The position numbers and the translations under genes were made by a program. This document shows positions 6,948 through 33,073 of a stretch of DNA of 50,127 nucleotides, piece after piece. This DNA comes from a virus. The notes beneath the pieces were generated by a model that did no database searches, was not told the DNA's origin, and was given only the letters and a program-made list of their open reading frames with translations. Each line of letters opens with the position of its first letter. Within the stretch, counting starts at the first letter, position 1. Where the stretch lies: IMG/VR virus record IMGVR_UViG_3300032236_001747, positions 1 through 50,127 of that record. The stretch is one strand, 5' to 3'.

Positions 6948-7151
6948 TTAACTCCTAGTCTTTACGATAGTTACACATGGATAGGCTTCGCCACATTCAT
7001 GACAAATTGAATGATTATCAGATAAATCTACTTCATAGTGCAGAATTCTGTCAATAGTATTATTTGCCTGCCTTACCCGAATTACAAGCATGTAGAAAAT
7101 AACACCGACAACGATACCACTTAGCAAAACTAGAAAATTTCCCAAAATCAC
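6948..7151 (-). CDS. Small membrane protein with Cys motif (67 aa)
   Basis: The start is GTG 7151, overlapping the upstream stop (GTGA). One membrane helix (FLVLLSGIVVGVIFYMLVI) is followed by a cytoplasmic tail with CHECGEAYPC. The Cys motif could bind metal. It sits directly after the sortase-type surface protein gene. The role is unknown. Confidence 0.65.
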   Translation of the reverse strand: MILGNFLVLLSGIVVGVIFYMLVIRVRQANNTIDRILHYEVDLSDNHSICHECGEAYPCVTIVKTRS

Positions 7152-7747
7152 TTCTTCTCCTTAGTAGTCCTGACGATTGAAAGAATTAACGCTCCTGCCA
7201 CTACAAAGACTACCGCACCGATGGAATAAAGGTAAGAGTTTTCTCCAGTCTGGGCCAACTTACTTCCATTACTAATTGCACTGTAACTTGGAGTTGGCTG
7301 AACAGTCGGAGGCACACTTGGCGTCGGTGTACTAGTAGGCGGTGCATGTGTTGGTGTAGGTGAAACACTTGGACTCTGAGTTGGCGTATCTGTGGGTGTT
7401 GGTGTCACACTATTTGTGGGTGTGTCACTAGGAGTTGGTGTCTCCGTTACACTAGGGCTTTCCGTAGGAGTAGGAGTTTCTGTCACAGTCTCTGAAGGGC
7501 TGGGAGAAACGGTAGGTGTTTCAGTAGGTGTGGGAGTTACGCTTTCGCTAGGAATAACCGATGGACTGGGAGAATGTGAATGCTCATTATCTTCTGATTC
7601 GCTAGGAGAAGGCTCTGGGCTTTCTGTTTCGCTCCATGTTGGGGAAGGCGTAGGTGTTGGCTTCTGCTCACATGCAAAAGCAACGGCAGGGGCACAGATA
7701 AGTGCGGTAGTCAATAGTGCTACGGCAACAGGCTTACGAATAATCAT
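7148..7747 (-). CDS. Exported Pro/Thr/Ser-rich protein with LAQTG sortase signal
   Basis: The start is ATG 7747 because AAGGAT lies 5 bases upstream; an in-frame ATG at 7762 is inside the previous gene. The layout is a signal peptide (cut near AFA/C), a long low-complexity P/T/S/E stalk, LAQTG (164-168), a membrane helix, and a KEKK tail. This is the classic cell-wall sorting signal; LAxTG is the form used by class E sortases of actinobacteria. If correct, the host sortase would anchor this phage protein to peptidoglycan during infection. No ligand-binding domain is visible, so it may be a spacer or receptor-masking protein (inference). Confidence 0.8.
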   Translation of the reverse strand: MIIRKPVAVALLTTALICAPAVAFACEQKPTPTPSPTWSETESPEPSPSESEDNEHSHSPSPSVIPSESVTPTPTETPTVSPSPSETVTETPTPTESPSVTETPTPSDTPTNSVTPTPTDTPTQSPSVSPTPTHAPPTSTPTPSVPPTVQPTPSYSAISNGSKLAQTGENSYLYSIGAVVFVVAGALILSIVRTTKEKK

Positions 7748-7748
7748 T

Positions 7749-7949
7749 TTAATCCTTTTCAAATAGTTTATTTATATCATTAATTGCTTTGATATATCCT
7801 TCTTGATGAGACTTAGCATGGTAAGAATCTTCATCCCGCCACTCAAGTTTATTAATCTCATCAAGAACCAGATCAATAACACGATCAGATTTGCGCTGAC
7901 AACCAGAACAACAACATCCGGTATTTCTGGCAACCTTCTTCAAGTTCAA
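7749..7949 (-). CDS. Small Cys-rich helical protein (66 aa)
   Basis: The start is TTG 7949, overlapping the stop of the upstream micro-ORF (ATTGA), with GAGG upstream. GCCCSGC near the N-terminus could bind metal. The end, HQEGYIKAINDINKLFEKD, resembles the end of the gene at 8020 (DGYDEAIRQVINLL), a common small-actinophage motif. The function is unknown. Confidence 0.6.
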   Translation of the reverse strand: MNLKKVARNTGCCCSGCQRKSDRVIDLVLDEINKLEWRDEDSYHAKSHQEGYIKAINDINKLFEKD

Positions 7950-8342: not shown

Positions 8343-9230
8343 CTAGTTAGTAAATCCCTTTTCCTTGGCCCATTCAAGAATGGCCTTGGCTACTGCCTTA
8401 TTCTTACCGAACTTAGGTGTCTTAACCCAATACTTTACACAATTCCAAAAATTAACATCTGAATTTGAAGGATCAGGTGTTGGTGTAGGTGGCACAGGTG
8501 CCGGTGGAACTGGTGTTGGATCTGGTGTAGGTGTAGGAGGAACTGGAGTAGGCTGAGGTGCAGGCTTATTTAAACCAACAAGAACTGTAGCATCTCCCTG
8601 CTCCGAAAGCAATCTATTTAGTGTATCAAATGACATGTAAGCACGACCATTATCAACACCCCAAGATGTACCCCATGAATTCTGCATTCCGACCAACTGA
8701 CGCTCTACATCAATTTCATCAAGAATAAATTCATGTCCACCTGCTACCGAATCACCGGGAGCAATGGTCAAAAGACCATTGGCATCAGGATTGAACATAT
8801 TATTATACCAATTAACACCAATCATAATTGGATGTTGGGTTAGAGCAGCAAGTACATCATTTAGCGAAAAGCAGTGGGTGTAGCCGCTGATGAGATTTCT
8901 CTGCAACAGAACTTTTGCCACGCTAATACCGCTTGATCCCTGATCCTCTGGGGGATAACCTACCCCACCGTCAATCTTTTCAGCATCTGAATAAACAGAA
9001 ACTGCAACTGATTCATCAAGTTCTGTTCCTACAGGAAGAGTACTAAAATAAGGATCAGTTGAGATCAGTCCGACTGCGCTATTCCCGGTGCAGGAGCCAA
9101 GATTGCCTTGGTCAAAACATGGTACATTTCTGTGCCAACGTGTTGACTTAAGAGTAATTGCTGAACCGTCAAAAGCGTAGTCCCTTGAACGTGGATCATG
9201 ATTTACATTACGACCTAAAGTGTATGACAT
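8343..9230 (-). CDS. Papain-like (C1) cysteine peptidase with Pro-rich linker
   Basis: The catalytic set is visible: Q41 and C47 in DQGNLGSCTGNSA, H166 in GGHEFIL, and N184 in QNSWGTSWG. After the peptidase domain (1-220) come a P/T/V linker (225-255) and a short basic C-terminal module (256-295). There is no signal peptide, so it would act in the cytoplasm, in the virion, or outside after lysis. C1-type peptidases occur in several actinophage genomes. The linker and terminal module suggest attachment to a wall or virion component. GGGGAAAAT precedes the ATG, and a terminator follows. Confidence 0.88.
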   Translation of the reverse strand: MSYTLGRNVNHDPRSRDYAFDGSAITLKSTRWHRNVPCFDQGNLGSCTGNSAVGLISTDPYFSTLPVGTELDESVAVSVYSDAEKIDGGVGYPPEDQGSSGISVAKVLLQRNLISGYTHCFSLNDVLAALTQHPIMIGVNWYNNMFNPDANGLLTIAPGDSVAGGHEFILDEIDVERQLVGMQNSWGTSWGVDNGRAYMSFDTLNRLLSEQGDATVLVGLNKPAPQPTPVPPTPTPDPTPVPPAPVPPTPTPDPSNSDVNFWNCVKYWVKTPKFGKNKAVAKAILEWAKEKGFTN

Positions 9231-9343: not shown

Positions 9344-10237
9344 TCAGAAACCTGCCTGCTTCAATGCATCTGCAAGGGAAGTTTTGAAACCAGCGGTGGT
9401 GTATGTGGCACCTGAAATGGTAGCAATGTTTGCGCTTTGTGCCTGCAAAGCCTCGAAAATCATAGTAGGATTCGCGGGGTCACTATTCAAACTTGCCATA
9501 GTAGCAACATTGAATTTACCAATGTTCTTAGAAGTGTTGTCCGTCGCACCAAAAACGGGAACGGTGATAGCGGTAATCTTACCGCCGGAAATTGTTGCTG
9601 CAACCTGAATTGGGTAAGTTAGACCCTGATCTGTAACATTTACAGTTGCGGCTGCGCCAGTGTATGTACCATCCTTAACATTGCTACCAGTAGCGGTTGG
9701 GCTAGGGGTAGGTGTTGGGGTGGCAGTTGGTGTTGCTGTGGGGGAAGGTGTAGCGGTTGGTGTACTTGTTGGAAGTACAGGGGTTCCGGTAACCTTTGCG
9801 TTATTTGTCTGGTCCTTAAGAACCTTAGTTGAACAGGTGTATGTCCAAGTCTCACCAATGTTTAGTAGTGGATCTGAATCATTTCCGCTAACATAGGTTA
9901 CTGGACTGCACTTGTCATCTTGAACCTGCACATTTTTGAAATCAGTTGCTCCGATATTAGCAACCTTGTATGTGTAGGTTACTGTGCTACCGGGAACAAC
10001 AAGATTCTTGTTGCTTGTAGTTGTCAGAGACAACTGTGCAGCGCGAGCGAAAACTGTTGCAGTTGCATCTGCTTCAACGGTGATAGTGTCCAAATTTGGT
10101 GAATCTACTGGAATTGGAAGAGAAACATCTGCTGCTGCATTTGTAGCCCAACCAATAACACTAACACCTGCAATTGCACTAAGTGCAAATACGGTCTTCT
10201 TTTTATTGTTTGTTCTTACCTTTTTAACACGACTCAT
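9344..10237 (-). CDS. Exported Ig-like and FMN_bind-domain protein
   Basis: The start is ATG 10237, chosen because AAAGGA lies 12 bases upstream and abuts the alternative ATG at 10249. The order is signal peptide (to about NAAA/D), an Ig-like DUF11-type domain (VPGSTVTYTYKVANIGATDF), a P/T linker, and a C-terminal FMN_bind domain. The motif SGATYT (SGAT at 275-278) matches the site where ApbE attaches FMN to a threonine. FMN_bind proteins carry electrons outside the membrane, for example in NqrC/RnfG and in partners of ferric-reductase-like proteins. No apbE is in this window, so the host would have to supply it. Own promoter at 10296. This is not a usual phage gene. Confidence 0.85.
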   Translation of the reverse strand: MSRVKKVRTNNKKKTVFALSAIAGVSVIGWATNAAADVSLPIPVDSPNLDTITVEADATATVFARAAQLSLTTTSNKNLVVPGSTVTYTYKVANIGATDFKNVQVQDDKCSPVTYVSGNDSDPLLNIGETWTYTCSTKVLKDQTNNAKVTGTPVLPTSTPTATPSPTATPTATPTPTPSPTATGSNVKDGTYTGAAATVNVTDQGLTYPIQVAATISGGKITAITVPVFGATDNTSKNIGKFNVATMASLNSDPANPTMIFEALQAQSANIATISGATYTTAGFKTSLADALKQAGF

Positions 10238-10295
10238 TAGAGTTATCATTCCTTTTGTATTTTTATGAGCGAGATCCTTTGATGCTCACCATTAC

Positions 10296-10304
10296 ATTAT
10301 ATCA
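10296..10304 (-). promoter_or_regulatory. Extended -10 promoter for the FMN_bind gene
   Basis: TGATATAAT: the TGA is the stop codon of the upstream gene and TATAAT occupies 10301-10296. Transcription would start near 10289, leaving a leader of about 50 bases with a small TGAGC/GCTCA hairpin. Confidence 0.6.
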
Positions 10305-10700
10305 GGACTGCCTAATAACTTTCGTAGGCACATCCATTTCTTTTAAAAGCCTTATACAATACTCAGACCTTTTACATGAAGATCGAATAAAAACTAGAGC
10401 ATAATCAATGCCGGAAGAAATCATATCATAATCAGAAGTAACTTTATCAGTCGCATTACCACTATATTTAGAACGCACCAGTTCTTCCTTGACAGAAAAA
10501 CCCTTTTGACGCATATAACGCTCTACCTTACCTACATACTCTGTTACCATATTTTCAGCACCAGCAGAACCAGTATGAACAAAAACAATCTTGTTATCCT
10601 CTGGATTCTTAAACGTGACATCTTCAATAGCAACAGTAATGTTACGCATTACCTCTTCATAATTAATCCAGTTCTTAGAACCGACCACTAAAATCCTCAT
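10302..10700 (-). CDS. SLOG/DUF2493-like nucleotide-binding protein
   Basis: The N-terminus MRILVVGSKNW and the later IVFVHTGSAGAENMV follow the Rossmann-like pattern of DUF2493/YspA (SLOG) proteins, which bind nucleotide-derived ligands. The family is common in phages, but its reaction is not established. AGGAG precedes the ATG. Confidence 0.7.
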   Translation of the reverse strand: MRILVVGSKNWINYEEVMRNITVAIEDVTFKNPEDNKIVFVHTGSAGAENMVTEYVGKVERYMRQKGFSVKEELVRSKYSGNATDKVTSDYDMISSGIDYALVFIRSSCKRSEYCIRLLKEMDVPTKVIRQS

Positions 10701-10710
10701 ATATGCTCCT

Positions 10711-10741
10711 AAAACAGAGTAGCGGCATTTAGCCGCTACTC
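10711..10741 (-). terminator. Intrinsic terminator between 10768 and 10700 genes
   Basis: A perfect 10-bp stem GAGTAGCGGC/GCCGCTACTC (10741-10732 with 10726-10717), 5-base loop, is followed leftward by TGTTTT. The ribosome site of the next gene follows at once. Confidence 0.75.
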
Positions 10742-10767
10742 CAGTATGTTTTTATTACTAATCTAGA

Positions 10768-11529
10768 TTAGTCTAAAGGAAGAAATGCGCTTCCCCAAAG
10801 ACTCTTTTTCATATCACTCTTCCAGTCATCTGGAATAAGATCTTGCTTACCCAGAGCCTTGGCTCTACGAATAATATGCTGCTTAACTTCTGGCTTAGCA
10901 CCGCCACGACCCCAAGACCTTATCGCATTCTTAAGATCTTTCTCGTCTTCAATTGGGTAAGATCCATCGCCCATAGCCTTGCCCTGCTGAGCAAGTTTCT
11001 TACGACGCGAATTAGAAAACTCTTTCTTTTCTATATCTAGATCTAAATCCGCAGACTTTTCTACCGAACAATTGTCGCAACAATCCCCGTTACAATCTGA
11101 ACCACAACTATCACAGCAACTACATGCTGCCTTAGTCATTCCCATACACTTGTCACAACAATTACCGTCGCAAGAATCACCCTGACAGTCTTCACAACAG
11201 GAAGAACCCTTTTGCATGGCAAGTTGACTCTGGGGATCTGGCTCAGTTGTACTTTCCTGACCACCAGCATTATATGAGTGATCCTGTGTTGTTGTTACAC
11301 TGATATTATTTCCAGTATCAGGAACTTGGGCGCTACTCTTGGCGTAGTATTCAACGTAATTGTCAGATTTTTCAGTGTGCTGACTGCTTGAAGTAACAGT
11401 AGGAGATAAACTTCCCTGAGCATTATATTGCTTGACAAGTTTACGAACCTTCTTTTGGAACTTTTTAACATCTTTCATAGCCTGCCTCTTCATAGCCCTT
11501 TTAAGAGACTTTGACTGTTTCTTAGGCAT
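10768..11529 (-). CDS. DUF6582-like protein with 15-cysteine tandem repeat
   Basis: A basic N-terminus (1-35) and a linker lead to two tandem Cys units (111-128 and about 138-154): CCEDCQGDSCDGNCCDKC and CCDSCGSDCNGDCCDNC. Fifteen cysteines occur in about 45 residues, interleaved with Asp and Gly. The C-terminal region (168-236) with RKKLAQQGKAMGDGSYPI, then LKNAIRSWGRG and HIIRRAKALG matches the DUF6582-type domain found in actinophage structural and maturation proteins. A metal-binding, virion-associated protein is likely; the Cys repeat is unusual. The start ATG overlaps the upstream stop. Confidence 0.72.
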   Translation of the reverse strand: MPKKQSKSLKRAMKRQAMKDVKKFQKKVRKLVKQYNAQGSLSPTVTSSSQHTEKSDNYVEYYAKSSAQVPDTGNNISVTTTQDHSYNAGGQESTTEPDPQSQLAMQKGSSCCEDCQGDSCDGNCCDKCMGMTKAACSCCDSCGSDCNGDCCDNCSVEKSADLDLDIEKKEFSNSRRKKLAQQGKAMGDGSYPIEDEKDLKNAIRSWGRGGAKPEVKQHIIRRAKALGKQDLIPDDWKSDMKKSLWGSAFLPLD

Positions 11530-11776
11530 TTGGGCCTGTCTGGTTATTTACTTTGCCCTGCTCAGTTGAAACAATTGGGCCACCATAAGGCTGAGCCGTG
11601 GTCATAGAAACATCTGCGCCAGTTAGCGGAGATGCAACACTATTACCAGTCATTGTCTTTGGCTCGTTGACACCAAGGTTGGTGATGTTTGCTGAGTTAA
11701 GAGTTGGGCTAAGAGTCTGATTTGAAACTTCAGGCTTAACAGAAGGCTGTGATGCTACTTGTTGGTTGTTATCCAT
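11522..11776 (-). CDS. Low-complexity hypothetical protein (84 aa)
   Basis: The start is ATG 11776, since AGAGGTG lies 8 bases upstream; a GTG/ATG farther upstream is not supported. The sequence is rich in Asn, Thr, Ser, Val and Pro and appears disordered. It overlaps the Cys-repeat protein by 8 bases. A virion assembly partner is possible but not shown. Confidence 0.6.
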   Translation of the reverse strand: MDNNQQVASQPSVKPEVSNQTLSPTLNSANITNLGVNEPKTMTGNSVASPLTGADVSMTTAQPYGGPIVSTEQGKVNNQTGPNA

Positions 11777-11813
11777 TAATAATTCACCTCTTTCCAAGGG
11801 TATTTATTTTAAT

Positions 11814-11819
11814 TATACA
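11814..11819 (-). promoter_or_regulatory. Possible -10 box for the 11776/11529 genes
   Basis: TATAAT (leftward at 11819-11814), preceded directly by TG and with a poor -35, lies in the 54-base gap before the ATG 11776. It is weaker evidence than the TGnTATAAT sites. Confidence 0.3.
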
Positions 11820-11830
11820 CTAAATATGAT

Positions 11831-12085
11831 TTATGACTTAAAAACGTTCATTAACCTAATTAAGGTTGACAATCTTTGCTCATTCGGAGAACTACTCAAA
11901 TTATTTAAATAATCGTTTACAGAATTCTGTAATGTCGTTATAAAAGCAAGAAGGTTGTCATTCGGAATTTTATCAAATGGGAAATACTGCTCTTCTGAGG
12001 CAATTTCAACATCGTTATCTAAAACAGAAATTGATACAGAAACGGGATAATCTAAATTAAGTTCATAATTTACATTAATTGACAT
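11831..12085 (-). CDS. Hypothetical protein (84 aa)
   Basis: The N-terminal half looks like beta strands (VNYELNLDYPVSVSISVLDN) and the C-terminal half helical. GGGAGGT precedes the ATG, and the start follows the upstream stop directly. No family is recognised. Confidence 0.65.
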   Translation of the reverse strand: MSINVNYELNLDYPVSVSISVLDNDVEIASEEQYFPFDKIPNDNLLAFITTLQNSVNDYLNNLSSSPNEQRLSTLIRLMNVFKS

Positions 12086-12214
12086 TTATTTACCTCCCTC
12101 ATTGTGACATTCGCAAGTACATTGACGATCTTCAGATAAAAGTCTAGTTAAACATTTATCGTGATGGCCCGTCAAACACCATCCAAATTTACCTTTAATT
12201 CCTGATACCATCAT
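12086..12214 (-). CDS. Small Cys/His protein (42 aa)
   Basis: This short frame encodes a protein with WCLTGHHDKC and CTCECH. The pattern C-x-T-G-x-H-x-x-C followed by C-x-C-x-C-H is common in small actinobacterial and actinophage zinc proteins. It overlaps the upstream gene by 20 bases and is followed directly by the next ATG (TAAATG), with its own tail supplying the GGGAGG ribosome site. Confidence 0.65.
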   Translation of the reverse strand: MMVSGIKGKFGWCLTGHHDKCLTRLLSEDRQCTCECHNEGGK

Positions 12215-12698
12215 TTACTCTTTCTTTTGCTACTGCCGCTATCTGTGCTGGAAATGTTAGATAAGGATCTGGAAACGCTGTGTCTCCTGCTGCCTCAGCA
12301 GCAAGTGCAGCCACCTGAGAACAAACAACTGTGGATAGGCGGCGATTAATTCTATCAACCCATTTAGGATTAGCCCCAAAAATAAGAAACAGAAGGGCTA
12401 TAATATCAACCCACCCATAAGGAGTTCCTACAAGCGACTGGGCCTTTTCAAGAGCCTTAGACTTATCACCTTGAACAGGCATAACAATCCAAGTTCCTTC
12501 TGGATACTGAGAAATATCATCTATAGACACACCCCAAGGATTTGCTTCTATAATTTGTCCATTGCCAGCATACACGGCTGCATGATTATAATACCATTCG
12601 CCTTTAGACCTAAACTTTGTCCATTGTGCTGCCTGAATTAGTCTAGAAAAAACCATCGTTGTATGAATTGCTAAAATGTCTCCGGGTTCTGGATTCAT
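12195..12698 (-). CDS. Permuted NlpC/P60-type (YiiX-like) cysteine hydrolase
   Basis: The start MNPEPGDILAIHT, then YYNHAAVYAGNGQIIEA (His first) and later STVVCSQVAALAAEAA (Cys second) is the circularly permuted NlpC/P60 order of YiiX/YebB-like enzymes. These cleave amide bonds in peptidoglycan peptides or act on lipids. A hydrophobic stretch (VDIIALLFLIFGANP) lies between them. There is no signal peptide. It overlaps an HNH gene by 4 bases. A virion-borne or lysis-related wall role is plausible. Confidence 0.75.
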   Translation of the reverse strand: MNPEPGDILAIHTTMVFSRLIQAAQWTKFRSKGEWYYNHAAVYAGNGQIIEANPWGVSIDDISQYPEGTWIVMPVQGDKSKALEKAQSLVGTPYGWVDIIALLFLIFGANPKWVDRINRRLSTVVCSQVAALAAEAAGDTAFPDPYLTFPAQIAAVAKERVNDGIRN

Positions 12699-13123
12699 GA
12701 AATTAACCCCCGAACATACTTTGCTGCCTCATAATCGGCAGCAGCAGCAACATGCACACCACCATGACCACGATGATGATGAACGCAAAGAACAATTAAA
12801 TTATCTGCACTTTCAACCCAAGCACCAACAGATTCAGGATCAGAAATGCCGGGATAATCTTTCTCCAACCAAGCAAGTTCTACCCCATTCTGAAGGCTAA
12901 ACTCAACATGGCTATGATGTAATTCAAGTGGTTTATCTAGAGAACACTCAGAAAAATCATTACGATGCTTACCTATAGCGCACTGCCACTTCTCTGGATC
13001 TTTCTTCCACTCTCTATGAATATGATTAAAATCTATGTAATGAGGATCATCTTCCCTAGCGGGATGCTCAGGATAATGAACCATGTATGAATGCGTCACT
13101 TTTTGATCGTGGGCATCGGTCAT
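12695..13123 (-). CDS. HNH-endonuclease-like protein
   Basis: The start is ATG 13123, with AGGTGAT upstream. LELHHSHVEF followed by NLIVLCVHHHRGHGGVH gives the H-H…N…H layout of the HNH (beta-beta-alpha metal) fold. It may act in packaging or as a selfish nuclease. It is one of three HNH genes in the window. Confidence 0.75.
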   Translation of the reverse strand: MTDAHDQKVTHSYMVHYPEHPAREDDPHYIDFNHIHREWKKDPEKWQCAIGKHRNDFSECSLDKPLELHHSHVEFSLQNGVELAWLEKDYPGISDPESVGAWVESADNLIVLCVHHHRGHGGVHVAAAADYEAAKYVRGLIS

Positions 13124-13156
13124 GTATATCACCTAATATAAAAGAATTTTCAATTC

Positions 13157-13165
13157 ATTATATCA
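13157..13165 (-). promoter_or_regulatory. Extended -10 promoter for the HNH/NlpC operon
   Basis: TGATATAAT (leftward 13165-13157), where TGA is the stop codon of the 57-residue gene upstream. It lies about 33 bases before the ATG 13123. Confidence 0.55.
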
Positions 13166-13336
13166 GTTTTTGCCGTATCTTATCTTCTCACAATGTACAC
13201 ATTTGAAGACATCTAAATGTTCGCTCGCCTTCTCATAAAGATGCTTATGAGAAGCCTTCTTAACCTTCGGCTTTTCTACCTTGCGTCGTGGACGAGTAAT
13301 TTCATCACGTTCGTCAAAGTAATCGTTATACTTCAC
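13163..13336 (-). CDS. Small Lys-rich Cys-pair protein (57 aa)
   Basis: The start is GTG 13336 with GAGGGAAC just upstream. The protein is basic in the middle (RPRRKVEKPKVKKASHKH) and ends with FKCVHCEKIRYGKN, a CxxC pair. It could bind nucleic acid and zinc. The gene is complete, and its stop doubles as a promoter TG element. Confidence 0.55.
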   Translation of the reverse strand: MKYNDYFDERDEITRPRRKVEKPKVKKASHKHLYEKASEHLDVFKCVHCEKIRYGKN

Positions 13337-13372
13337 AGTTCCCTCATTTTAATAGTTGCCAATTTATGACAG

Positions 13373-13445
13373 CGCCCCCGGCAGGAGTCGAACCTGCGAC
13401 TAAGTGGGTAGAAACCACCTACTCTGTCCTCTGAGTTACGGGGGC
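13373..13445 (-). tRNA. tRNA-Arg (anticodon UCU)
   Basis: A full cloverleaf can be drawn: acceptor GCCCCCG/CGGGGGC, anticodon stem GGTGG/CCACT with loop TTTCTAC (anticodon TCT), and T arm GCAGG-TTCGACT-CCTGC. CCA is not encoded. It reads AGA/AGG, which are frequent in this AT-rich genome. Confidence 0.93.
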
Positions 13446-13456
13446 CGGAATGCATC

Positions 13457-13669
13457 TTAGTCTGGGCCTTCTGCAATCATCATAACGCCCCTCAAAAATG
13501 CTTCTGGCATATTTGCAGCCAGAATTCCAACGGACTTTCGTGTGTCCTCATTCATAGCATCTGCAGGAACTGTGACCCGCATTGTAATTCCCGTATGAGC
13601 ATCTGTACAATGCACAAACAACTCATTCATTTCAACATCTACAGTTGCTTCGGTAAGAATACTAGCCAT
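13457..13669 (-). CDS. Hypothetical protein (70 aa)
   Basis: The protein looks like a small beta-rich domain (VEMNELFVHCTDAHTGITMR) followed by a helix (KSVGILAANMPEAFLRGV). It overlaps the upstream gene by 8 bases. No family is recognised. Confidence 0.6.
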   Translation of the reverse strand: MASILTEATVDVEMNELFVHCTDAHTGITMRVTVPADAMNEDTRKSVGILAANMPEAFLRGVMMIAEGPD

Positions 13670-13889
13670 TATTCTTCACCCTATTATTAGCATTAATTTT
13701 AATCATCTCTACATAATGCATAAGACCCTTACCAAGGCTATTAAATACTAGATCCAGAGCATAATAAACATCCTCTGGATGACCCTTCTCGTCAAGGCCG
13801 GGACTAACATTAGTATCCTGATAAACCCGCGCTGCCAATTCCAACAATTCAGTTGGAGTAATATGCATATCTTTAAACTCAATGCTCAT
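13662..13889 (-). CDS. Hypothetical protein (75 aa)
   Basis: The start is ATG 13889, inside the end of the upstream gene; a TTG at 13892 is the alternative. It is helical and acidic at first (TPTELLELAARVY). No known domain. Confidence 0.6.
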   Translation of the reverse strand: MSIEFKDMHITPTELLELAARVYQDTNVSPGLDEKGHPEDVYYALDLVFNSLGKGLMHYVEMIKINANNRVKNNG

Positions 13890-14376
13890 CAACTAACTCC
13901 TTTTCTCCATGACCTTTAACAGGCCAATAATAATTACAACGATCACAACAAACAAAACCGGCACCAATAGATGCTTCGTACTCATACTGAGGATACAACT
14001 CTGGGGCTTTATTGTAAAGACTTCTGCGATGAGTCGTTACAACGCTATGAAGAGTTACCCGATCAATAAACCAAGGAGGATTACTGTATCCGTCCTCACG
14101 ATCAAAGTAGTCCCGCAACTTTACAATCTCATTCCAGTTATTTTCGTACTTGTAGCCGCGACTTTGCATTTCTTTGGCAATACAGTACAGGTAGCCATAA
14201 AGAGCAAGTTCATGACCTTCAAACATTTTAGTAGCAGGGTGATTACGCCAACCCTTGGTTTGTCCTGCAAGCGCGGCAAGGATCTGACGACCCTCAAGCA
14301 ACTGCTTGACCAAACGCTTGTTGTCCAGCGCCTTGGCAGAATCCTCAAACGTGTACTCTGACATAAAAACTTGCAT
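13879..14376 (-). CDS. Pyrimidine-dimer glycosylase-like (MSMEG_6728-type) protein
   Basis: The start MQVFMSEYTFEDSAKALDNK, then RLVKQLLEGRQIL, GWRNHPATKMFEGHE and ALYGYL follow the actinobacterial MSMEG_6728 family related to T4 endonuclease V (DenV), which excises UV-induced pyrimidine dimers. The C-terminal part adds FVCCDRCNYYW, a possible zinc site. The role in repairing phage DNA after sunlight is inference. AGGAG-like sequence precedes the ATG. Confidence 0.75.
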   Translation of the reverse strand: MQVFMSEYTFEDSAKALDNKRLVKQLLEGRQILAALAGQTKGWRNHPATKMFEGHELALYGYLYCIAKEMQSRGYKYENNWNEIVKLRDYFDREDGYSNPPWFIDRVTLHSVVTTHRRSLYNKAPELYPQYEYEASIGAGFVCCDRCNYYWPVKGHGEKELVDEH

Positions 14377-14385
14377 GTGTTCTCC

Positions 14386-15693
14386 TTAGAACGAAAACGA
14401 TTCATGGTATATCTTATTATCCATAACACCAGCATTTAGCGCAAGGGTAATTACGTCATCCATAAAACTTTCTGTGCCGCACACATACACTTCTCTGAAA
14501 GATAAATCTGGTATGTACTGACGAATATAATGCGCCGTCATCGGATGCTTAGTACGATCACCAATAAGATAATACAATTTCCAATGATTTGTCAGAAACA
14601 AACTTTCTAAATCTTCATAAAGAATTATGTCATCGACACTAGAAACTCTGTAAATTAAAACAACATCTGCCCTTCTAGGAAGTTCTTCTAGCATAGCCAA
14701 GATTGGGGTAATACCAATACCTGCTGCAAACGCTGCAATATCATTAGTCTGACGCCTATGTGCTGTAAAAATACCATACGGACCTTCAGCAAAAATTCTA
14801 GTGCCGGGACGCAACCTTCTTGCTAGATCCCTGCTATGATCACCAAGTATTTTAACAGTAATTCTTAGGTCACCATTCTTTGGTGATCGGGAAAGCGAAT
14901 AAGGGTGTGCCTGCCACCACCATTTCCTTGTCAGAAAACGCCATTGGAAAAACTGTCCACCCCTAGCATCAATGTCTTCTAAATTAAGACCACTAATGTA
15001 AACGCTATACACATCTGCGGTTTCCTGAACAACTCTTTCAATTCTTAACTTATGACGCCTAGAAAAAATAAATGGTTGAATAATCCTATTCATAATGATA
15101 GTCAAGAAAACTCCCGCGTATAAAAATATCCAACAAGCCCTGAGAAAAGAATGCTTAATGAAAATATTCCCATTATCAAGTTGATGACCAAAAGCAAGAA
15201 CGACGGCTACATAGAATAAAAGATGAAACGCCCACCATACTTCATACCGCATCATGCTACGAATTTTACGATAACTCATTAAACCAAGAATCACCATCAT
15301 AGCAAACGCTACAATGGCTTCCGGCATCCACGGATAATCAGTAAAAAACATTTTAGTCTGTGACCAAAATGTTTGTTTAAACGGTTTAGCATATCCAAAA
15401 GTGGTGAAGATCACATGTGCAGCGATCAAGACCAAAGCATACGGAGCAATCTTACGATGCCACAAAATCATCTTGTCATGACCAACTTGACGTTCAAGGA
15501 AAGGCAATCGAGAAGAAAGCAGCAACATCATTAGACAAAGATAGGTACCAGTCATTGCAAAAATAGTACCCCAAGAAATCATACTTCTCAGGGATGCCTT
15601 TACAACAAAAAGGGAACTGCCAACAACAAGACCAAAACCTAAACCGGACATTCCAATAGCAAAACTTGCTATATCAATTCTTTTCTTCAACAT
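14386..15693 (-). CDS. Ferric-reductase-like membrane flavo-heme oxidoreductase
   Basis: The N-terminal half has about six membrane helices with two pairs of heme-ligand histidines: H79 and H93 (LWHRKIAPYALVLIAAHVIF), H157 and H170 (WWAFHLLFYVAVVLAFGHQL). The C-terminal half is an FAD/NAD(P)H reductase: HPYSLS (263-268, FAD), GPYGIF, AAGIGITP (323-330, NAD(P)) and CGTESFMDD (405-413). This is a complete ferric-reductase/NOX-like enzyme that moves electrons from cytoplasmic NAD(P)H to the outer face. It overlaps a small gene by 20 bases. In hosts the family partners with FMN_bind proteins, also present here at 9344. It is very unusual in a phage. Confidence 0.92.
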   Translation of the reverse strand: MLKKRIDIASFAIGMSGLGFGLVVGSSLFVVKASLRSMISWGTIFAMTGTYLCLMMLLLSSRLPFLERQVGHDKMILWHRKIAPYALVLIAAHVIFTTFGYAKPFKQTFWSQTKMFFTDYPWMPEAIVAFAMMVILGLMSYRKIRSMMRYEVWWAFHLLFYVAVVLAFGHQLDNGNIFIKHSFLRACWIFLYAGVFLTIIMNRIIQPFIFSRRHKLRIERVVQETADVYSVYISGLNLEDIDARGGQFFQWRFLTRKWWWQAHPYSLSRSPKNGDLRITVKILGDHSRDLARRLRPGTRIFAEGPYGIFTAHRRQTNDIAAFAAGIGITPILAMLEELPRRADVVLIYRVSSVDDIILYEDLESLFLTNHWKLYYLIGDRTKHPMTAHYIRQYIPDLSFREVYVCGTESFMDDVITLALNAGVMDNKIYHESFSF

Positions 15694-15841
15694 TATCTTC
15701 CGTTAATCCTTTATACTCTTCCAACGCTTCATATGCTACGCGAGCCAATTGACGCCAAGTAAAATTCTCTGTCTCATTTTCATCATAATTCTTCATGGCC
15801 TCAGCCATTTTTTGAATAGCAACAAATCTATCAAACATCAT
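15674..15841 (-). CDS. Small acidic protein (55 aa) preceding the reductase
   Basis: An excellent ribosome site (GGAGG, 6 bases before ATG 15841) supports this short frame, which encodes RFVAIQKMAEAMKNYDENE… ending EEYKGLTEDNVEEKN. It overlaps the reductase start by 20 bases, so the two may be co-translated. No family is recognised. Confidence 0.65.
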   Translation of the reverse strand: MMFDRFVAIQKMAEAMKNYDENETENFTWRQLARVAYEALEEYKGLTEDNVEEKN

Positions 15842-16360: not shown

Positions 16361-16903
16361 TTACTTACTTATTATTTCAAAAGGTCCAATTACTAATGGA
16401 CTAAAGGTGCTGGCTGCCTCTAATGCTTTCTCTACCTTATTCACCACAGCCACCTCTTTCGGCATCGCAAAAAATGCCCCCATCGCATAATTAGCGCCTG
16501 CGCCAATTGCTGCATAAGACAAAGTATCGCACTCAACATGGAAATCATTTTCTATATAAAAAATGTATCCATAAACTCCTACAAGAAGCGACCATGCATT
16601 TTTATCCTCTTCGTGTAGGGGAAATTCATGATCTTCAAAACATTGCTTGAGGGCAGGAACAAATTCTGTAACCATAAACTCCATAACAAAATCAAAATCT
16701 GGATTATTGGAAATTCGTGGTGGGTCAAAATTATATTTTAAAATTTGTCCTAGCCTAAAACTTTGACAGAATCCGATTAAAAAATCGCCATTCCTAAAAA
16801 CTTTAGGTTCTTTTTGAGGAAGAACGATAGAACCATCACTGGCAGCAGCATCGGAACCCATATAAACCTTACCCTTATGAGAATATGCCACTACACATGT
16901 CAT
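16361..16903 (-). CDS. Proteasome-like Ntn-hydrolase (HslV/20S beta type)
   Basis: The catalytic set of proteasome beta subunits is visible when numbered from the Thr after Met: T1 (T2), D17 (D18 in MGSDAAASD) and K33 (K34 in KEPKVF). The length of 180 residues and the conserved GAGANYAMGAF fit. No ATPase partner gene is seen nearby. It would be activated by removal of Met1. It might act on host or phage proteins; related genes occur in a few actinophages. The substrate is unknown. Confidence 0.8.
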   Translation of the reverse strand: MTCVVAYSHKGKVYMGSDAAASDGSIVLPQKEPKVFRNGDFLIGFCQSFRLGQILKYNFDPPRISNNPDFDFVMEFMVTEFVPALKQCFEDHEFPLHEEDKNAWSLLVGVYGYIFYIENDFHVECDTLSYAAIGAGANYAMGAFFAMPKEVAVVNKVEKALEAASTFSPLVIGPFEIISK

Positions 16904-19228: not shown

Positions 19229-19678
19229 TTAAACTACTACGCTCTCAAGGGTTGCGCGTAATTGCCAGTTCCAAAACTGATGCTTATCAATTCTTTCTGC
19301 AATAAAATTAGCCAAGCCCTGCTCATCAGAAGCATTAGCAGAACGGAAAATTGCCTTGAGTTGATTGATAATTACCATATTTACAGAAGTTAATTCAATT
19401 AACATATCAACGGGGGAAAGGTTTGGGTTTTCTTTAACAGAAACTGTTTGTGAATTAGACCACGTTTTTAAACCAAATGGCGCATCATCACCAAGTTTAC
19501 GAATATTTTCTGAAATAGTATCAATAGAATCATACACATCTTCATAAATCTCAAGAAAGAATGCGTGCAACTGCTTAAATAACATGCCCTTAACGTTCCA
19601 ATGATAGCCATGAGCCTGTGCATACATGGCAACAACGTTTGCCTGTAAACTTTTTAAATCTTCTGTTAAATCTGACAT
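19229..19678 (-). CDS. Dps-like ferritin (DNA-protection/iron-storage family)
   Basis: The helix AHGYHWNVKG (H26) and the next helix with LHAFFLEIYEDVYDSIDTIS (H38, D53, then E57) match the Dps ferroxidase layout, in which ligands come from two subunits; the acid expected at position 42 is Leu, with Glu at 43. Dps oxidises and stores iron and shields DNA from peroxide. In a phage it could lock up iron or protect DNA. AAGGAT precedes the ATG, and there is an extended -10 promoter with a 5' hairpin leader at 19702-19751. Confidence 0.88.
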   Translation of the reverse strand: MSDLTEDLKSLQANVVAMYAQAHGYHWNVKGMLFKQLHAFFLEIYEDVYDSIDTISENIRKLGDDAPFGLKTWSNSQTVSVKENPNLSPVDMLIELTSVNMVIINQLKAIFRSANASDEQGLANFIAERIDKHQFWNWQLRATLESVVV

Positions 19679-23495: not shown

Positions 23496-25331
23496 CTATA
23501 AAATTGTAAAATTGTCTACAAAACCAGATTCTTCTGGCTCTATTCCAACACTATTCAAGAAATCCCGAACCTTATCCGGCATAATTCTTTGTTGCTTAGG
23601 TAATTCTATAACACCGCTTGATTTTCTTTCAAGGTCTTTTATATTTTCCAACTCGTCTTCTGAATCATAGGTATAAATTTGAACCTCTCTATTTAAATCT
23701 GCTGGAGTTCTTGCAACAGCATTATATATAGCCCCACAAGTAGCATCAGCAAGATCTTTAGATCCCGTTCTTGGGTGATCGACTTTATCTTTGATAATTC
23801 TTAATTGCAATAACTCATCAATTAAGATTTGATTTCTAGGTCCGAACAATCTTTCTTCCATAATAACAAGAGCCATATCTTCATAATGTTTTTTTGCTAC
23901 AGAAAGAACCTCACAATTCATACCATATGCTTTGAGTTGTTGCATCATATCGTGTGAATTCCAACGGTCAAAAGTAACCATTTTAATATCAAAACCACGA
24001 TGTTTCAAAGAAACAATGTAATCTTTCACTTCTGTAAAATCTACGCTTTGAGTGGATTTAGGAGTCCACCAACGAATGGCGTCTACGATAATGTAGGGAG
24101 CAGCCTCGTTCATTTGACTGCCAACCTTGATTCTTCTCCAAGAATCAACATGAGCCATTGTGACGGCACAACGGTCATGTTTTTGAGCAAGGTCAACGTG
24201 AATAAAATACATTTTATCTTTTTCAGGTTTAAACCATTCTTGGAATCTATTATTTTCATCGAGATTTGGGTTGAGACTACTAAAAGCCCTTTCTATCTTT
24301 TCTCTAGACTTAAAGAATGCATCCTGAGCATCTGGAGGCATACATGCAAACCTACCAAGTGCGTCTACCGGATCTGTATAAAATGCAACAGTAAAATCTT
24401 CTATAGATCTTGTTGGATTAACTTCCCACGTTGGTCTTTTTAATGCAAAAACTTTAGGAACAGAATAGGATAAAATATGATCTTCTTCCCAATCTATATA
24501 AAATTTATTTTCTTCTACATCATCCGGTAATTCTGGATCAATTTTAAATTGATGAGTTCTAATAACAATTTCTTTTTCATTAACAACTTCATCGTATCTT
24601 TGTTGAATGAAGTCATTCTTATATCGCGGGAAAGATAAAAGAACAACTTTGCCAAAATCTGGGAAACGGGAATCTACCGATCCCCTATACATCTTATAGA
24701 TCGCTCCCGCAGTTTTAGCCTGTTCATTTCCACTAGTAGACTCTATATCAAAACCGGAAATTTCGTCAAGGATAGCAAGTAGGACGTTGTATCCTTCCCA
24801 AGATTCTCTTTGAGAGTGCCCAGAATGCACCGTGATAGCCTTATCAAATTCAATGCTATTTGCTTTTGTTTCATATTTACCAGCAAACCAAGGGCATCTT
24901 TCAATACGATTAACAAAACCTTTAAAGAAAACTCTATTAGCCTGAACAGCATTGATAGCAATATTAATAATATCGATAGCATCACCGGGAGGCTTGCCAT
25001 AATATTTAGCAGGATCTTTTAAGCACAATAACAAATACACAATATAAGCACAAGCAATAGTAGAAGTATAATCTTTCCCAGACCCCTTTCCTAGTTGAAA
25101 AATAACTTCATTACACGTTTGCTTCCATCTTTTTTTACCTTCTTTTTCACCAAATAATGTAATTAAAGTTTCTTTCTTATATATTTGAGTAGTTGCCTTA
25201 ATCATTGTATATTGATTTTCTGAAAGAGGGGGAAGATTAAGGAATTTATTAGAAACGACAAATTCTTCTATCGAAACTGGTTGTTCCTCAAATTCTTCCC
25301 CCGCTAGTATTTCAAGAAAATCTTCAAACAT
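23496..25331 (-). CDS. Terminase large subunit
   Basis: Walker A is QLGKGSGKD (79-87), Walker B is LLAILDEI (183-190), and the nuclease acids are in HVDLAQK (D379), VTFDRWNS (D454) and KDLADAT (D525 and D528). Both ATPase and nuclease halves are complete at 611 residues. It is the DNA-packaging motor and cutter. The gene overlaps the GDP-mannose dehydratase by 8 bases rather than adjoining the small terminase directly. Confidence 0.95.
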   Translation of the reverse strand: MFEDFLEILAGEEFEEQPVSIEEFVVSNKFLNLPPLSENQYTMIKATTQIYKKETLITLFGEKEGKKRWKQTCNEVIFQLGKGSGKDYTSTIACAYIVYLLLCLKDPAKYYGKPPGDAIDIINIAINAVQANRVFFKGFVNRIERCPWFAGKYETKANSIEFDKAITVHSGHSQRESWEGYNVLLAILDEISGFDIESTSGNEQAKTAGAIYKMYRGSVDSRFPDFGKVVLLSFPRYKNDFIQQRYDEVVNEKEIVIRTHQFKIDPELPDDVEENKFYIDWEEDHILSYSVPKVFALKRPTWEVNPTRSIEDFTVAFYTDPVDALGRFACMPPDAQDAFFKSREKIERAFSSLNPNLDENNRFQEWFKPEKDKMYFIHVDLAQKHDRCAVTMAHVDSWRRIKVGSQMNEAAPYIIVDAIRWWTPKSTQSVDFTEVKDYIVSLKHRGFDIKMVTFDRWNSHDMMQQLKAYGMNCEVLSVAKKHYEDMALVIMEERLFGPRNQILIDELLQLRIIKDKVDHPRTGSKDLADATCGAIYNAVARTPADLNREVQIYTYDSEDELENIKDLERKSSGVIELPKQQRIMPDKVRDFLNSVGIEPEESGFVDNFTIL

Positions 25332-26358
25332 TATTTCTATTTGCCTCAGATTCGCACATATCTCTAACTAGATCTTCAAAACTATACTTCATTTCCCATC
25401 CAAGTTGTGCCTTAGCCTTTGCTGGATCACCCAACAAGGTATCTACTTCGGCTGGTCGGAAAAATTCTTTACTAATGTTTATTAACTCTATTCCAGTATT
25501 TTCATCATACCCAATTTCATCGACACCAAAACCTTTCCAAGCCAAAGAAAACCCAAAGTGTGCTGCGGCAATAGAAGCAAATTCTCTTACGGAATGCTGT
25601 TCACCAGTAGCAATAACATAATCTTCCGGGGAGTCCTGCTGCAAAATTAGCCACATGGCTTCAACAAAATCTTTCGCATGACCCCAGTCTCTTAGGGTAT
25701 CAATGTTTCCCAATTTGATTGGAGCCTTGTCTATTGTTAACGCTATACGAGCCATACCCTTAACAATTTTTTGTGTAACAAACTCTTCGCCTCTGCGTGG
25801 TGACTCATGATTAAAAAGAAGCCCGCTGGTTGCAAACATGTCATAAGACTCTCTATAATTTTTTGTAATCCAATATGCATATAATTTTGCTACGCCATAT
25901 GGTGAACGGGGGTAAAAAGGTGTAACCTCAGTCTGAGGAATTTGTTGAACTTTTCCAAACATTTCTGACGTACACGCCTGATAAAACTTTACAGAATCTA
26001 CCTTGCCAAGAACCCTAATGCTATCGAGAATTCTTAAAGTACCCAAGGCATCCACGTTTGAAGTATATTCTGGTGTTAAAAAGGACTCTCCGACATGACT
26101 TTGGGCGGCAAGATTATAAATCTCATGAGGATCTACATCCTTAATAATTGAAGAAATGCTAGAGGTTTCTCCAATGTCGCCTGCATGTAAATGAAAATTC
26201 TTATTTTCTAAAACACTTGAGATTCTTTCATTGTTGTTAGTAGAAAGGCGACGACGAATACCATGAACTTCGTAACCTTTATTTAATAAATTTTCTGCTA
26301 AGTACGAGCCGTCCTGACCAGTTACGCCAGTAATTAATGCTCTTTTTGCATTGTCCAT
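25324..26358 (-). CDS. gmd: GDP-mannose 4,6-dehydratase
   Basis: The start LITGVTGQDGSYLAENLL carries the NAD(P)-binding TGxxGxxG. AAQSHVGESF, YQACTSEMFG and YGVAKLYAYW (Y-x3-K) and FNHESPRRGEEFVT are distinctive for GMD, which makes GDP-4-keto-6-deoxymannose for fucose/rhamnose-type sugars. Its position within the packaging module, between terminase genes, is odd and suggests insertion. No GDP-fucose synthase gene was seen downstream. Confidence 0.93.
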   Translation of the reverse strand: MDNAKRALITGVTGQDGSYLAENLLNKGYEVHGIRRRLSTNNNERISSVLENKNFHLHAGDIGETSSISSIIKDVDPHEIYNLAAQSHVGESFLTPEYTSNVDALGTLRILDSIRVLGKVDSVKFYQACTSEMFGKVQQIPQTEVTPFYPRSPYGVAKLYAYWITKNYRESYDMFATSGLLFNHESPRRGEEFVTQKIVKGMARIALTIDKAPIKLGNIDTLRDWGHAKDFVEAMWLILQQDSPEDYVIATGEQHSVREFASIAAAHFGFSLAWKGFGVDEIGYDENTGIELINISKEFFRPAEVDTLLGDPAKAKAQLGWEMKYSFEDLVRDMCESEANRNNV

Positions 26359-26366
26359 GTTTTCCC

Positions 26367-26891
26367 TTAATCTACTCTTATTAATTCAACCTGATTGGTT
26401 GCCTCTGAAAGCCTTTTGGCTACTTCATATTTACAGCGATCACAATCCGCTGTAACATCTCTTAAAATCTCTACTAAAATCTTTTGTTTTCTTTCAGTTT
26501 CCATAAGTTGATCAGCAAGTTCGCTATTCTCAAGGACTCCCGCCTTATTCAACATATCAAGACGTTTCTGCTCTGTATCAGCAACAAGTTTAAGAGCCTG
26601 AGTCTTAACAGAATATTGTTGATTAGAATCTGCTTGGTCAACAGTTTCCCAAGCCTTAGAAATAATCATGGCATAATGCTGATCTGCTCCTGCAATTGCT
26701 TCCCTCGCACGATTATGAATGTTACTATCATTGTGAATAATTTGTTTCCACTCAGATATTAATTCTGTAACAAGTGCGCGGGACATGTTAAGATGAGTAG
26801 CGATCTCTTTTGGACTTGATCCTTTAAGTAGTTCTTCAACTACTCTATTCATAGAATCAAATCTTTCTGCAATTTCTAATTCAGATCCCAA
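26367..26891 (-). CDS. Probable terminase small subunit
   Basis: The start is TTG 26891 with AAGGA upstream. An N-terminal helix-turn-helix (SSPKEIATHLNMSRALVTEL) is followed by long helices suitable for oligomerisation, as in small terminases that recognise phage DNA. A C-terminal Cys pair (DCDRCKYEVA) is unusual. The position near the large subunit supports the call; another DNA-binding role is possible. Confidence 0.65.
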   Translation of the reverse strand: MGSELEIAERFDSMNRVVEELLKGSSPKEIATHLNMSRALVTELISEWKQIIHNDSNIHNRAREAIAGADQHYAMIISKAWETVDQADSNQQYSVKTQALKLVADTEQKRLDMLNKAGVLENSELADQLMETERKQKILVEILRDVTADCDRCKYEVAKRLSEATNQVELIRVD

Positions 26892-27171
26892 GTTTTTTCC
26901 TTATGCTCTTTTTTGCACGATGAACACCCTTTAAGGTATCTATGTAGAATGATCTAAACTCCCCCGTATTTGGATTCATGCAATCAATCCAAGTAACATC
27001 AAGGTGGGAGTTATGCACCCACTTATGAAAAATAAAATAACCTCGAACATTCTTAATCTTGATCTTGTCCCCCGGTTTAATAACATCCTTACCAAATTCT
27101 AGTTCTGTATAAACCGTTATATCAGGATTGTTATAGGGAAGGCGCTCAACCTTTTCCCTCTTTTTCTTCAC
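26881..27171 (-). CDS. Small basic actinophage-type protein (96 aa)
   Basis: The start is GTG 27171, overlapping the previous stop (GTGA); a TTG at 27198 is the alternative. FGKDVIKPGDKIKIKNVRGY followed by WIDCMNPNTGEFRSF is a beta-barrel-like, basic domain typical of small packaging-neighbourhood proteins. The function is unknown. Confidence 0.65.
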   Translation of the reverse strand: MKKKREKVERLPYNNPDITVYTELEFGKDVIKPGDKIKIKNVRGYFIFHKWVHNSHLDVTWIDCMNPNTGEFRSFYIDTLKGVHRAKKSIRKKLGI

Positions 27172-27335
27172 CTGTATCCACCGGCTGTCGGTGCCCAAAC
27201 AGAACCGGGCCTATCAATTCCACGAATTAATTTGTATCCACAATCTGGACAATAGGCTTTATCACGCTGTTCCATTTTTTGCATAAGAACCATTTCTTTA
27301 TCACATGGAATGCATGTGTAAGTATACATCGGCAT
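27168..27335 (-). CDS. FmdB-type zinc-ribbon protein (55 aa)
   Basis: The N-terminus MPMYTYTCIPC, then AYCPDCGYK and the ending with WAPTAGGYR are the FmdB/Zn-ribbon pattern (CxxC x~17 CxxC). Such proteins are thought to be small regulators. It is coupled to the next gene (GTGA). Confidence 0.75.
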   Translation of the reverse strand: MPMYTYTCIPCDKEMVLMQKMEQRDKAYCPDCGYKLIRGIDRPGSVWAPTAGGYR

Positions 27336-27336
27336 T

Positions 27337-27654
27337 TTATCTCCAATTGTCGCGCTTTGCTACCTTTAATAATACCAGATAGCCAATTAGATCGTCAATA
27401 TCATTATCACCGGGAAATTCTTTACCCTTGAGAAATCTACTTAACTTATCATCAATCCTAACAAGCAACTGCTCTTGATTATCCGCTTTAGAAAAAACCC
27501 TAACAGGTTCAAGCGCGGAATTCCCATAAGCCCTATTTTTTTGAATAAGAAAATCTGCCATCTCACTACAAATTTTAGTAATCTCTACCTCAACCTTATT
27601 CCTTGGTGATTTAGTATCATATCCATCATCAAGTTTCATTTTAAGATTTGCCAT
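27337..27654 (-). CDS. Nucleotide-modification-domain-like protein (105 aa)
   Basis: The pattern ADFLIQKNRAYGNSA, then QLLVRIDDKLSRF and DDLIGYLVLLKVAKR resembles the DUF1599/nucleotide-modification-associated proteins found in phages. A precise reaction cannot be stated. It overlaps the IMPDH-like gene by 14 bases. Confidence 0.6.
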   Translation of the reverse strand: MANLKMKLDDGYDTKSPRNKVEVEITKICSEMADFLIQKNRAYGNSALEPVRVFSKADNQEQLLVRIDDKLSRFLKGKEFPGDNDIDDLIGYLVLLKVAKRDNWR

Positions 27655-28678
27655 GCGGGATACTCTCCTTTAAACTATTGGGTGTAACTCTAATATATTC
27701 TGAAAAAAGTTGCAAATCTTCAAGGCTATGAACACCAGAATATGAACAACCACTTTGTATTCCGGCACGCCACTCATCTAAAGTTCTCCCCACCTCACCC
27801 TTAAAAGGAATTAAAGTGCTTTCTCCTTCAACGACAGAAACTTTTCCATGCCATTCCTCTTGAGCCTGACGACTTGCCATTCCCCGAAATTCCTTATAAG
27901 ATCTACCATCTTTATTTATCAATTGACCCGGAGACTCTTTGTGACCTGCCAATGCCGACCCAAGCATAATTGCATCTGCGCCAGCCGCAAAAGCCTTTAC
28001 AGCGTCACCACTATTTCTAATTCCTCCATCAGCAATAATAGAAGTAGGTAGTTCTATTCTTTCCATCATTTCATAAATCTCCATAATAGAAGAAAGAGTT
28101 GGCATACCATGTCCAGTTACAATTCTAGTGCTGCACATCGAACCACCCCCAATGCCAACACGAATTGAGTCAGCCCCCGCAAGAGAAAGTTGTAAAAAGC
28201 CATCCCATGTAGAAACATTTCCCGCCATAATATGAATTTCTGGAAATGCTCTTCTAATTTCCCTAACAGTATTAATTGCTAAAAAATTATGACCGTTTGC
28301 TGTATCGACAAGAATAAGGTTAGCGCCAGAATAAATTAAAGATTTAACTTGATTTAAAACTGAATTATGTACGCCAACCGCTGCTCCAATTAAATGATTT
28401 TTCATAGCGACAGAATTAACTTGCTGTGTCTGTTTTTCAGCACTCATAAAACGATGGATTATCCCAAGCCCACCGTATGAAGATATTTCCATAGCCATAT
28501 CTTGCTCACAAACAGTGTCCATCGGAGAAGCAATAATTGGAAGATATAAATTAATTTTTCTTTCAACTCCAATAGACATTTCCAAATCTACATCTTTTCT
28601 ACTTTCAATCAATGATGATTTTGGAACCATTAGTATATCTTCAAAACAAATGCTTTCTTGCTGATTATATAATTTCAT
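27641..28678 (-). CDS. IMP dehydrogenase/GMP reductase family enzyme
   Basis: The TIM-barrel signature VGIGGGSMCSTR (174-185, catalytic C182), ASPMDTVCE, ILVDTANGH and IIADGGIRNSGD are all present. At 345 residues with no CBS insert, the length fits GMP reductase, as does GCSYSG near the end, while FRGMAS and TRIVTG lean to IMP dehydrogenase. It would set the guanine-nucleotide balance, feeding GDP-sugar synthesis next door (inference). The start overlaps the upstream stop as TAATG. Confidence 0.85.
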   Translation of the reverse strand: MKLYNQQESICFEDILMVPKSSLIESRKDVDLEMSIGVERKINLYLPIIASPMDTVCEQDMAMEISSYGGLGIIHRFMSAEKQTQQVNSVAMKNHLIGAAVGVHNSVLNQVKSLIYSGANLILVDTANGHNFLAINTVREIRRAFPEIHIMAGNVSTWDGFLQLSLAGADSIRVGIGGGSMCSTRIVTGHGMPTLSSIMEIYEMMERIELPTSIIADGGIRNSGDAVKAFAAGADAIMLGSALAGHKESPGQLINKDGRSYKEFRGMASRQAQEEWHGKVSVVEGESTLIPFKGEVGRTLDEWRAGIQSGCSYSGVHSLEDLQLFSEYIRVTPNSLKESIPHGKS

Positions 28679-31120: not shown

Positions 31121-31178
31121 TTTTCTCCTAATAATCACTGCCCACTAATATTGGGGCATCATACACGCAAACATTTTC

Positions 31179-31187
31179 ATTATATCA
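31179..31187 (-). promoter_or_regulatory. Extended -10 promoter upstream of the RmlB-like gene
   Basis: TGATATAAT leftward at 31187-31179 overlaps the end of the upstream gene (KLI-stop). It would start transcription of the 30110-side glycan genes. Confidence 0.5.
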
Positions 31188-32444: not shown

Positions 32445-32447
32445 TAA

Positions 32448-33071: not shown

Positions 33072-33073
33072 TA

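Follow-up and report, generated by a model that had tools for sequence, protein, structure and literature searches.

The virus record IMGVR_UViG_3300032236_001747 of IMG/VR, a linear stretch of 50,127 bases that was analysed as a whole and is called the window below, encodes an exported protein with an FMN_bind (flavin mononucleotide-binding) domain, P0001, and a membrane reductase of the NOX/ferric-reductase type, P0002. The two genes are genuine and intact, and purifying selection acts on both, with a ratio of nonsynonymous to synonymous substitution (dN/dS) of 0.13-0.21 between lineages. The most likely interpretation of the two sequences is that the phage would contribute both the electron donor and the carrier for an outward-directed chain, with ApbE coming from the host. 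Such a pair suggests, moreover, that the infecting virus may change the redox chemistry of the host surface.

The presumed donor, P0002, displays the following features.

14386..15693, minus strand: P0002, 435 amino acids, transmembrane NAD(P)H oxidoreductase of the NOX/ferric-reductase type (FRE), with Pfam PF01794, PF08022 and PF00175.
15193..15555, minus strand: ferric reductase domain, residues 47-167, which with its flanks contains six hydrophobic segments.
15415..15459, minus strand: first heme-ligand pair, His79 and His93, with 13 residues between.
15184..15225, minus strand: second heme-ligand pair, His157 and His170, with 12 residues between.
14890..14907, minus strand: motif HPYSLS for binding of flavin adenine dinucleotide (FAD), residues 263-268, from sequence and alignment.
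14704..14721, minus strand: NAD(P)H-binding motif GIGITP, residues 325-330, from sequence and alignment.

An earlier, sequence-only reading had assigned the two proteins to the FMN_bind and ferric-reductase families, and profile searches of both bear this out, every domain scoring above its Pfam cut-off. For P0002 the E values are 1.4e-18 (Ferric_reduct, PF01794), 1.3e-6 (FAD_binding_8) and 1.1e-6 (NAD_binding_1), and dN/dS between lineages is 0.14-0.21. The hydrophobic segments of the membrane half lie at residues 6-24, 42-60, 82-100, 122-140, 152-170 and 183-201, a further, weak one falling within the NAD(P)H domain, and a structure model of medium confidence (pLDDT, the predicted local distance difference test score, 58.6) places helices in the membrane part. 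The four heme histidines that had been proposed are invariant in all five phage proteins and the aligned cellular relatives, and their spacing of 13 and 12 residues is identical to that in human NOX2, where the ligands are His101/115 and His209/222 (PMC3591440). With four heme histidines, an FAD domain and an NAD(P)H domain in a single chain, P0002 agrees with the definition of a long-form NOX/FRE protein. Its full-length solved relatives by profile are structures of SpNOX, the NADPH oxidase of Streptococcus pneumoniae (PDB 8qt6, 8qq7), which is also the best solved match by fold to the model of pLDDT 58.6. SpNOX possesses, like P0002, a six-helix heme domain fused to an FAD/NADPH domain, at approximately 20% identity, whereas the FAD motif reads HPF in NOX and HPY in P0002. 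Because the best solved relative is SpNOX, the name of the Pfam domain should not be taken to mean that P0002 reduces ferric iron directly.

The presumed carrier, P0001, starts with a predicted signal peptide, followed by a DUF7507/DUF11 domain, then a Pro/Thr linker and, at the C-terminus, an FMN_bind domain ending in ATISGATYTT; the parts are arranged as follows.

9344..10237, minus strand: P0001, exported FMN_bind protein with the conserved start MSRVKK, from Pfam and homologue alignment.
10129..10237, minus strand: predicted signal peptide, with a basic start, a single hydrophobic segment and an Ala-rich end.
9749..10030, minus strand: DUF7507/DUF11 (Ig-like) domain, residues 74-167, above cut-off for Pfam PF24346 and PF01345; its end overlaps the Pro/Thr-rich linker.
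9359..9625, minus strand: FMN_bind domain, residues 209-297, Pfam PF04205, E 5.6e-7.
9404..9424, minus strand: flavinylation motif A-T-I-S-G-A-T with the predicted FMN acceptor Thr282, from comparison with the consensus.

Both proteins had been placed at these positions by the sequence-only reading and both are present there; the coding strand is the minus strand, the plus strand in this region being full of stops. The P0001 frame could also start at an in-frame ATG at 10249, and since the homologues share the MSRVKK start, 10237 is probably the true one. The FMN_bind domain scores 30.6 bits against a cut-off of 22, and the family profile matches the SaFMN3 domain of Streptomyces (8p2a) with an E value of 5e-35. 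SaFMN3 of Streptomyces azureus provides an experimental parallel within the FMN_bind family: it carries SGATYTS, acquires covalent FMN upon co-expression with ApbE, has a potential of -184 mV, and has been crystallised as a single domain with the ApbE-attached FMN (PMC10339131). Unlike P0001, it contains three FMN_bind domains, is without DUF7507 and keeps the motif Asp. The consensus of ApbE substrates is D-x-x-[S/T]-G-A-[S/T] (PMC12052999). Of the SGAT flavinylation motif claimed at the outset, the S/T-G-A-S/T core is borne out, with SGAT at residues 279-282 in the window, in L002/L006 and in L005/L007 of related phages; the leading residue, which is taken up below, departs from the consensus. 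The predicted structure of P0001, with a mean pLDDT of 39.8, was too poor to be used.

Analysis of other phages demonstrates that the two genes travel together among the contigs examined. Four other IMG/VR contigs encode a P0002-like reductase at 72-80% identity. The reductase scans of IMG/VR always returned these same four, though pattern scans may miss diverged ones, and a scan with P0001 gave two of them. All three related contigs that extend to its site carry the FMN_bind gene (identity 85%, 74% and 70%, the last copy being cut off at the contig end); the fourth reductase contig, L003, stops short of the site. The claim that a phage carries both genes is thus borne out in every related contig covering both sites, and no fully covered contig has just one of the two. 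Within the 48 phage contigs searched, which comprise the window, three reductase carriers and 44 terminase relatives, mostly fragments, neither gene occurred in any of the 44 terminase relatives, and P0001 was seen only in phages with P0002. In each case the FMN_bind gene lies on the same strand downstream of the reductase, at 4.1 kb in the window, 1.8 kb in L002 and 4.4 kb in L005; the genes in between are rearranged among contigs, and FMN_bind keeps a peptidase-like neighbour. In contig L041 (79% terminase identity), homologues of window genes 15674-15841 and 13879-14376 stand side by side at 12100-12400 and the reductase is absent; the reductase neighbours are contiguous there without it, so either one lineage acquired the gene or the other lost it. 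Among 50,697 phage records searched by tblastn there was neither a full-length reductase nor a close FMN_bind relative of P0001, and neither protein had a PHROG family match. Host contamination of the contig is ruled out, since the two genes are surrounded by phage genes and their neighbours recur in four other contigs. Chance or misannotated frames are likewise ruled out by the profile scores and by conservation, with 72-85% identity and dN/dS of about 0.13-0.2 between lineages.

The window is probably a fragment of an actinophage genome. By its terminase and DNA polymerase it appears related to Stanwilliamsviridae, the closest sequences (up to 66% and 57% identity, respectively) being those of Streptomyces phages of Loccivirinae such as Gilson and BillNye. 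These nearest phages measure approximately 127-133 kb, and the two that were looked up belong to Stanwilliamsviridae, Loccivirinae. The host is probably an actinobacterium. The variable region of genomes of this kind lies downstream of the terminase, as phage Francob illustrates.

In actinobacteria, relatives of P0002 are usually neighbours of FMN_bind and apbE genes. Within one actinobacterial class, 130 of 297 genomes encode a related reductase. Bacterial reductases of this kind had been expected beside FMN_bind and ApbE genes, and an FMN_bind or ApbE gene does lie within 1.5 kb at 28 of the 30 nearest cellular loci, both at 21 of them, in agreement with the literature (PMC8238504); several of the remaining loci are cut by contig ends. 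The actinobacterial family whose reductases are closest to those of the phages shows the same neighbourhood. Diverged FMN_bind copies are missed by the search, as in the L008 genome, where no match reached the threshold despite an SGAT-like protein beside its reductase. In the tree, the five phage reductases form one clade (100/100), which lies inside a larger supported group (98/94) that also includes 12 proteins from a single actinobacterial family and three further proteins. The closest kin of P0001 are tandem DUF7507-FMN_bind proteins in two genomes of that same family (L141 in G132 and L168 in G355), with which the phage proteins form a clade supported at 100/99 on a short alignment. They share the architecture of P0001, with 55% identity in the FMN_bind part (111 amino acids, L141) and 53% in the DUF part (129 amino acids, L146/L168). 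Unlike P0001, they are chromosomal and present in two copies, between housekeeping genes and beside an LPKTG-anchored stalk protein. Both phage proteins thus have their origin in a single actinobacterial family or close relatives of it. They were probably brought together from two loci; capture of one host operon is not favoured, the nearest cellular kin of the two proteins being at different loci. Two further observations concern these regions. A multicopper-oxidase-like protein (L141, 10316-11731, plus strand) is encoded divergently from the DUF7507-FMN_bind tandem and is a possible redox partner. Large fn3-type surface proteins lie just upstream of the reductase in the nearest family (L143, 6995-10000, minus strand; L153, 2-1225, plus strand), some proteins of this type having a weak FMN_bind match, which would make them possible long-stalked flavoproteins.

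The known system that most resembles the phage pair is the “MsrQ-like” flavinylation cluster, mainly actinobacterial, in which PF01794/PF00175 proteins occur with FMN_bind and ApbE (Meheust et al. 2021, PMC8238504). P0002 has the membrane cytochrome domain PF01794, often found with PF00175, by which this type is recognised, it shares the C-terminal FAD- and NAD-binding domains of the cluster reductase, and it nests within actinobacterial reductases; the FMN_bind partner, presumed in the phage, is exported in both. The phage version differs in its location, in the nonadjacent genes, in the lack of a detected apbE and in the FMN_bind protein itself, to which a DUF7507/DUF11 domain and a long stalk are added. 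By comparison with this cluster, P0002 would oxidise NAD(P)H in the cytosol, pass the electrons to FAD and carry them across the membrane over two b hemes, as its domains and conserved ligands imply. The exported and stalked P0001 would take up these electrons on an FMN at Thr282, attached by the ApbE of the host, which would be needed because no apbE was found in the phage contigs. Finally, P0001 would hand the electrons to an acceptor in the cell wall, possibly ferric iron or oxygen. That P0001 and P0002 act as partners up to the loading of FMN is considered fairly probable, on account of the protein families, the heme ligands, the motif, the co-occurrence and the cellular neighbourhood. For any one particular acceptor, whether iron, oxygen or another, the probability is well under half. 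The pair could also serve a chain of the host's own, each protein working with a host partner.

Several points weigh against a partnership. The leading Asp of the ApbE motif is Ala in P0001; Ala also occupies this position in the cellular relatives L009-L012, L014 and L015, and an Asp-to-Ala change at the motif start affected flavinylation only slightly (PMC12052999). The two phage genes are nonadjacent, 1.8-4.4 kb apart, and their co-occurrence rests on few, related contigs. While the pair was found together when related phages were checked, as the sequence-only reading had proposed, apbE (PF02424) had no match in the five phage contigs, which are up to 95 kb long and all apparently fragments, and could possibly lie beyond the fragment ends. 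Furthermore, no reductase or apbE adjoins the cellular tandem DUF7507-FMN_bind genes, and because proteins of the P0001 type sit away from both in cells, any partnership was probably not inherited from one operon.

Reductive iron acquisition, a special case of the partnership in which ferric reduction at the surface would let the infected cell import ferrous iron, is unlikely. The iron transporter VIT1 is present in some cellular MsrQ-like clusters (PMC8238504), and the window encodes a Dps/ferritin-like protein (19229-19678, minus strand; Pfam Ferritin, E 4e-15). However, VIT1 was not found in any of the five phage contigs, and Dps-like genes are widespread in related phages without the pair (27 searched loci), so they are unlinked to it.

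Another explanation is that P0002 functions alone as a NOX, transferring electrons to oxygen to form superoxide outside the membrane, with P0001 unrelated. Its closest solved fold relative, SpNOX, is a bacterial NOX that produces superoxide (PMC5676040) and, in contrast to the role proposed for P0002, has no known FMN_bind partner. The histidine spacing shared with NOX2 and the agreement of GIGITP with the published NADPH-motif filter for bacterial NOX also favour an oxidase, and since reduced SaFMN3 reacts with oxygen too (PMC10339131), reactive oxygen species are possible even with P0001 involved. Yet HPYSL fails the published NOX filter H[PSA]F[TS][LIMV], which has Phe at the third position (PMC5676040), the nearest relatives of P0002 adjoin FMN_bind and ApbE genes, unlike a stand-alone oxidase, and the phages bearing P0002 also carry P0001, which makes a lone oxidase quite unlikely.

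It is very doubtful that P0001 is instead a surface protein of other use, such as receptor masking or the exclusion of other phages, its FMN_bind domain being a leftover of host origin and P0002 serving host redox balance or iron with FMN_bind proteins of the host: the Ig-like domain and long stalk are typical of surface proteins, the cellular kin stand beside LPXTG stalk proteins away from reductases and the motif Asp is lost, but purifying selection has preserved the FMN_bind domain and SGATYT across phages, and in the examined set P0001 occurs only with P0002.

Metabolic genes are known in phages. The literature on flavinylation that was examined does not mention phages, and the literature searched on phage flavinylation and phage ferric reductases gave no phage case, nor any report of a phage with a complete membrane electron carrier from NAD(P)H to the outside together with a likely flavoprotein partner. 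Both families and their association in bacteria are already published; the phage-borne form, with no apbE detected and an FMN_bind protein of different architecture, appears neither in this literature nor in the 50,697 phage records. It is possible, if slightly short of probable, that actinophages install their own transmembrane electron export, composed of a NOX-type donor and a stalked flavoprotein flavinylated by host ApbE, and thereby control surface redox or iron in the infected cell, an auxiliary function class not described for phages in the literature searched. If the pair works, electron flow to the surface of infected actinobacteria would be driven by a phage, and the compact phage pair would provide a handle on the actinobacterial MsrQ-like system and its acceptor.

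Two neighbouring genes complete the setting of the pair.

8343..9230, minus strand: peptidase-like phage protein next to the FMN_bind gene (phrog_16701, E 1e-51), which adjoins FMN_bind in L002 and L005 too.
7148..7762, minus strand: exported Ser/Pro/Thr-rich protein with LAQTG, a membrane segment and KEKK (a sortase-type anchor by sequence), a possible third member.

The LAQTG protein is found in the window only and is absent from related phages; its possible membership in the system is suggested by analogy with two actinobacterial genomes, where an LPXTG stalk gene follows FMN_bind. The window also carries terminase, DNA polymerase, endolysin, tRNA, primase, helicase and WhiB genes. At 16361-16903 (minus strand), a protein starting MTCVVA displays weak HslV/proteasome-type matches and is possibly an Ntn-hydrolase relative; it diverges fast, with 40-43% identity between otherwise close phages. 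A block of sugar-nucleotide and glycosyltransferase genes occupies 25324-35599 (minus strand) and includes an IMPDH/GMP-reductase-like gene at 27641-28678; G+C falls as low as 0.275 at 32-34 kb, compared with approximately 0.38-0.40 elsewhere.

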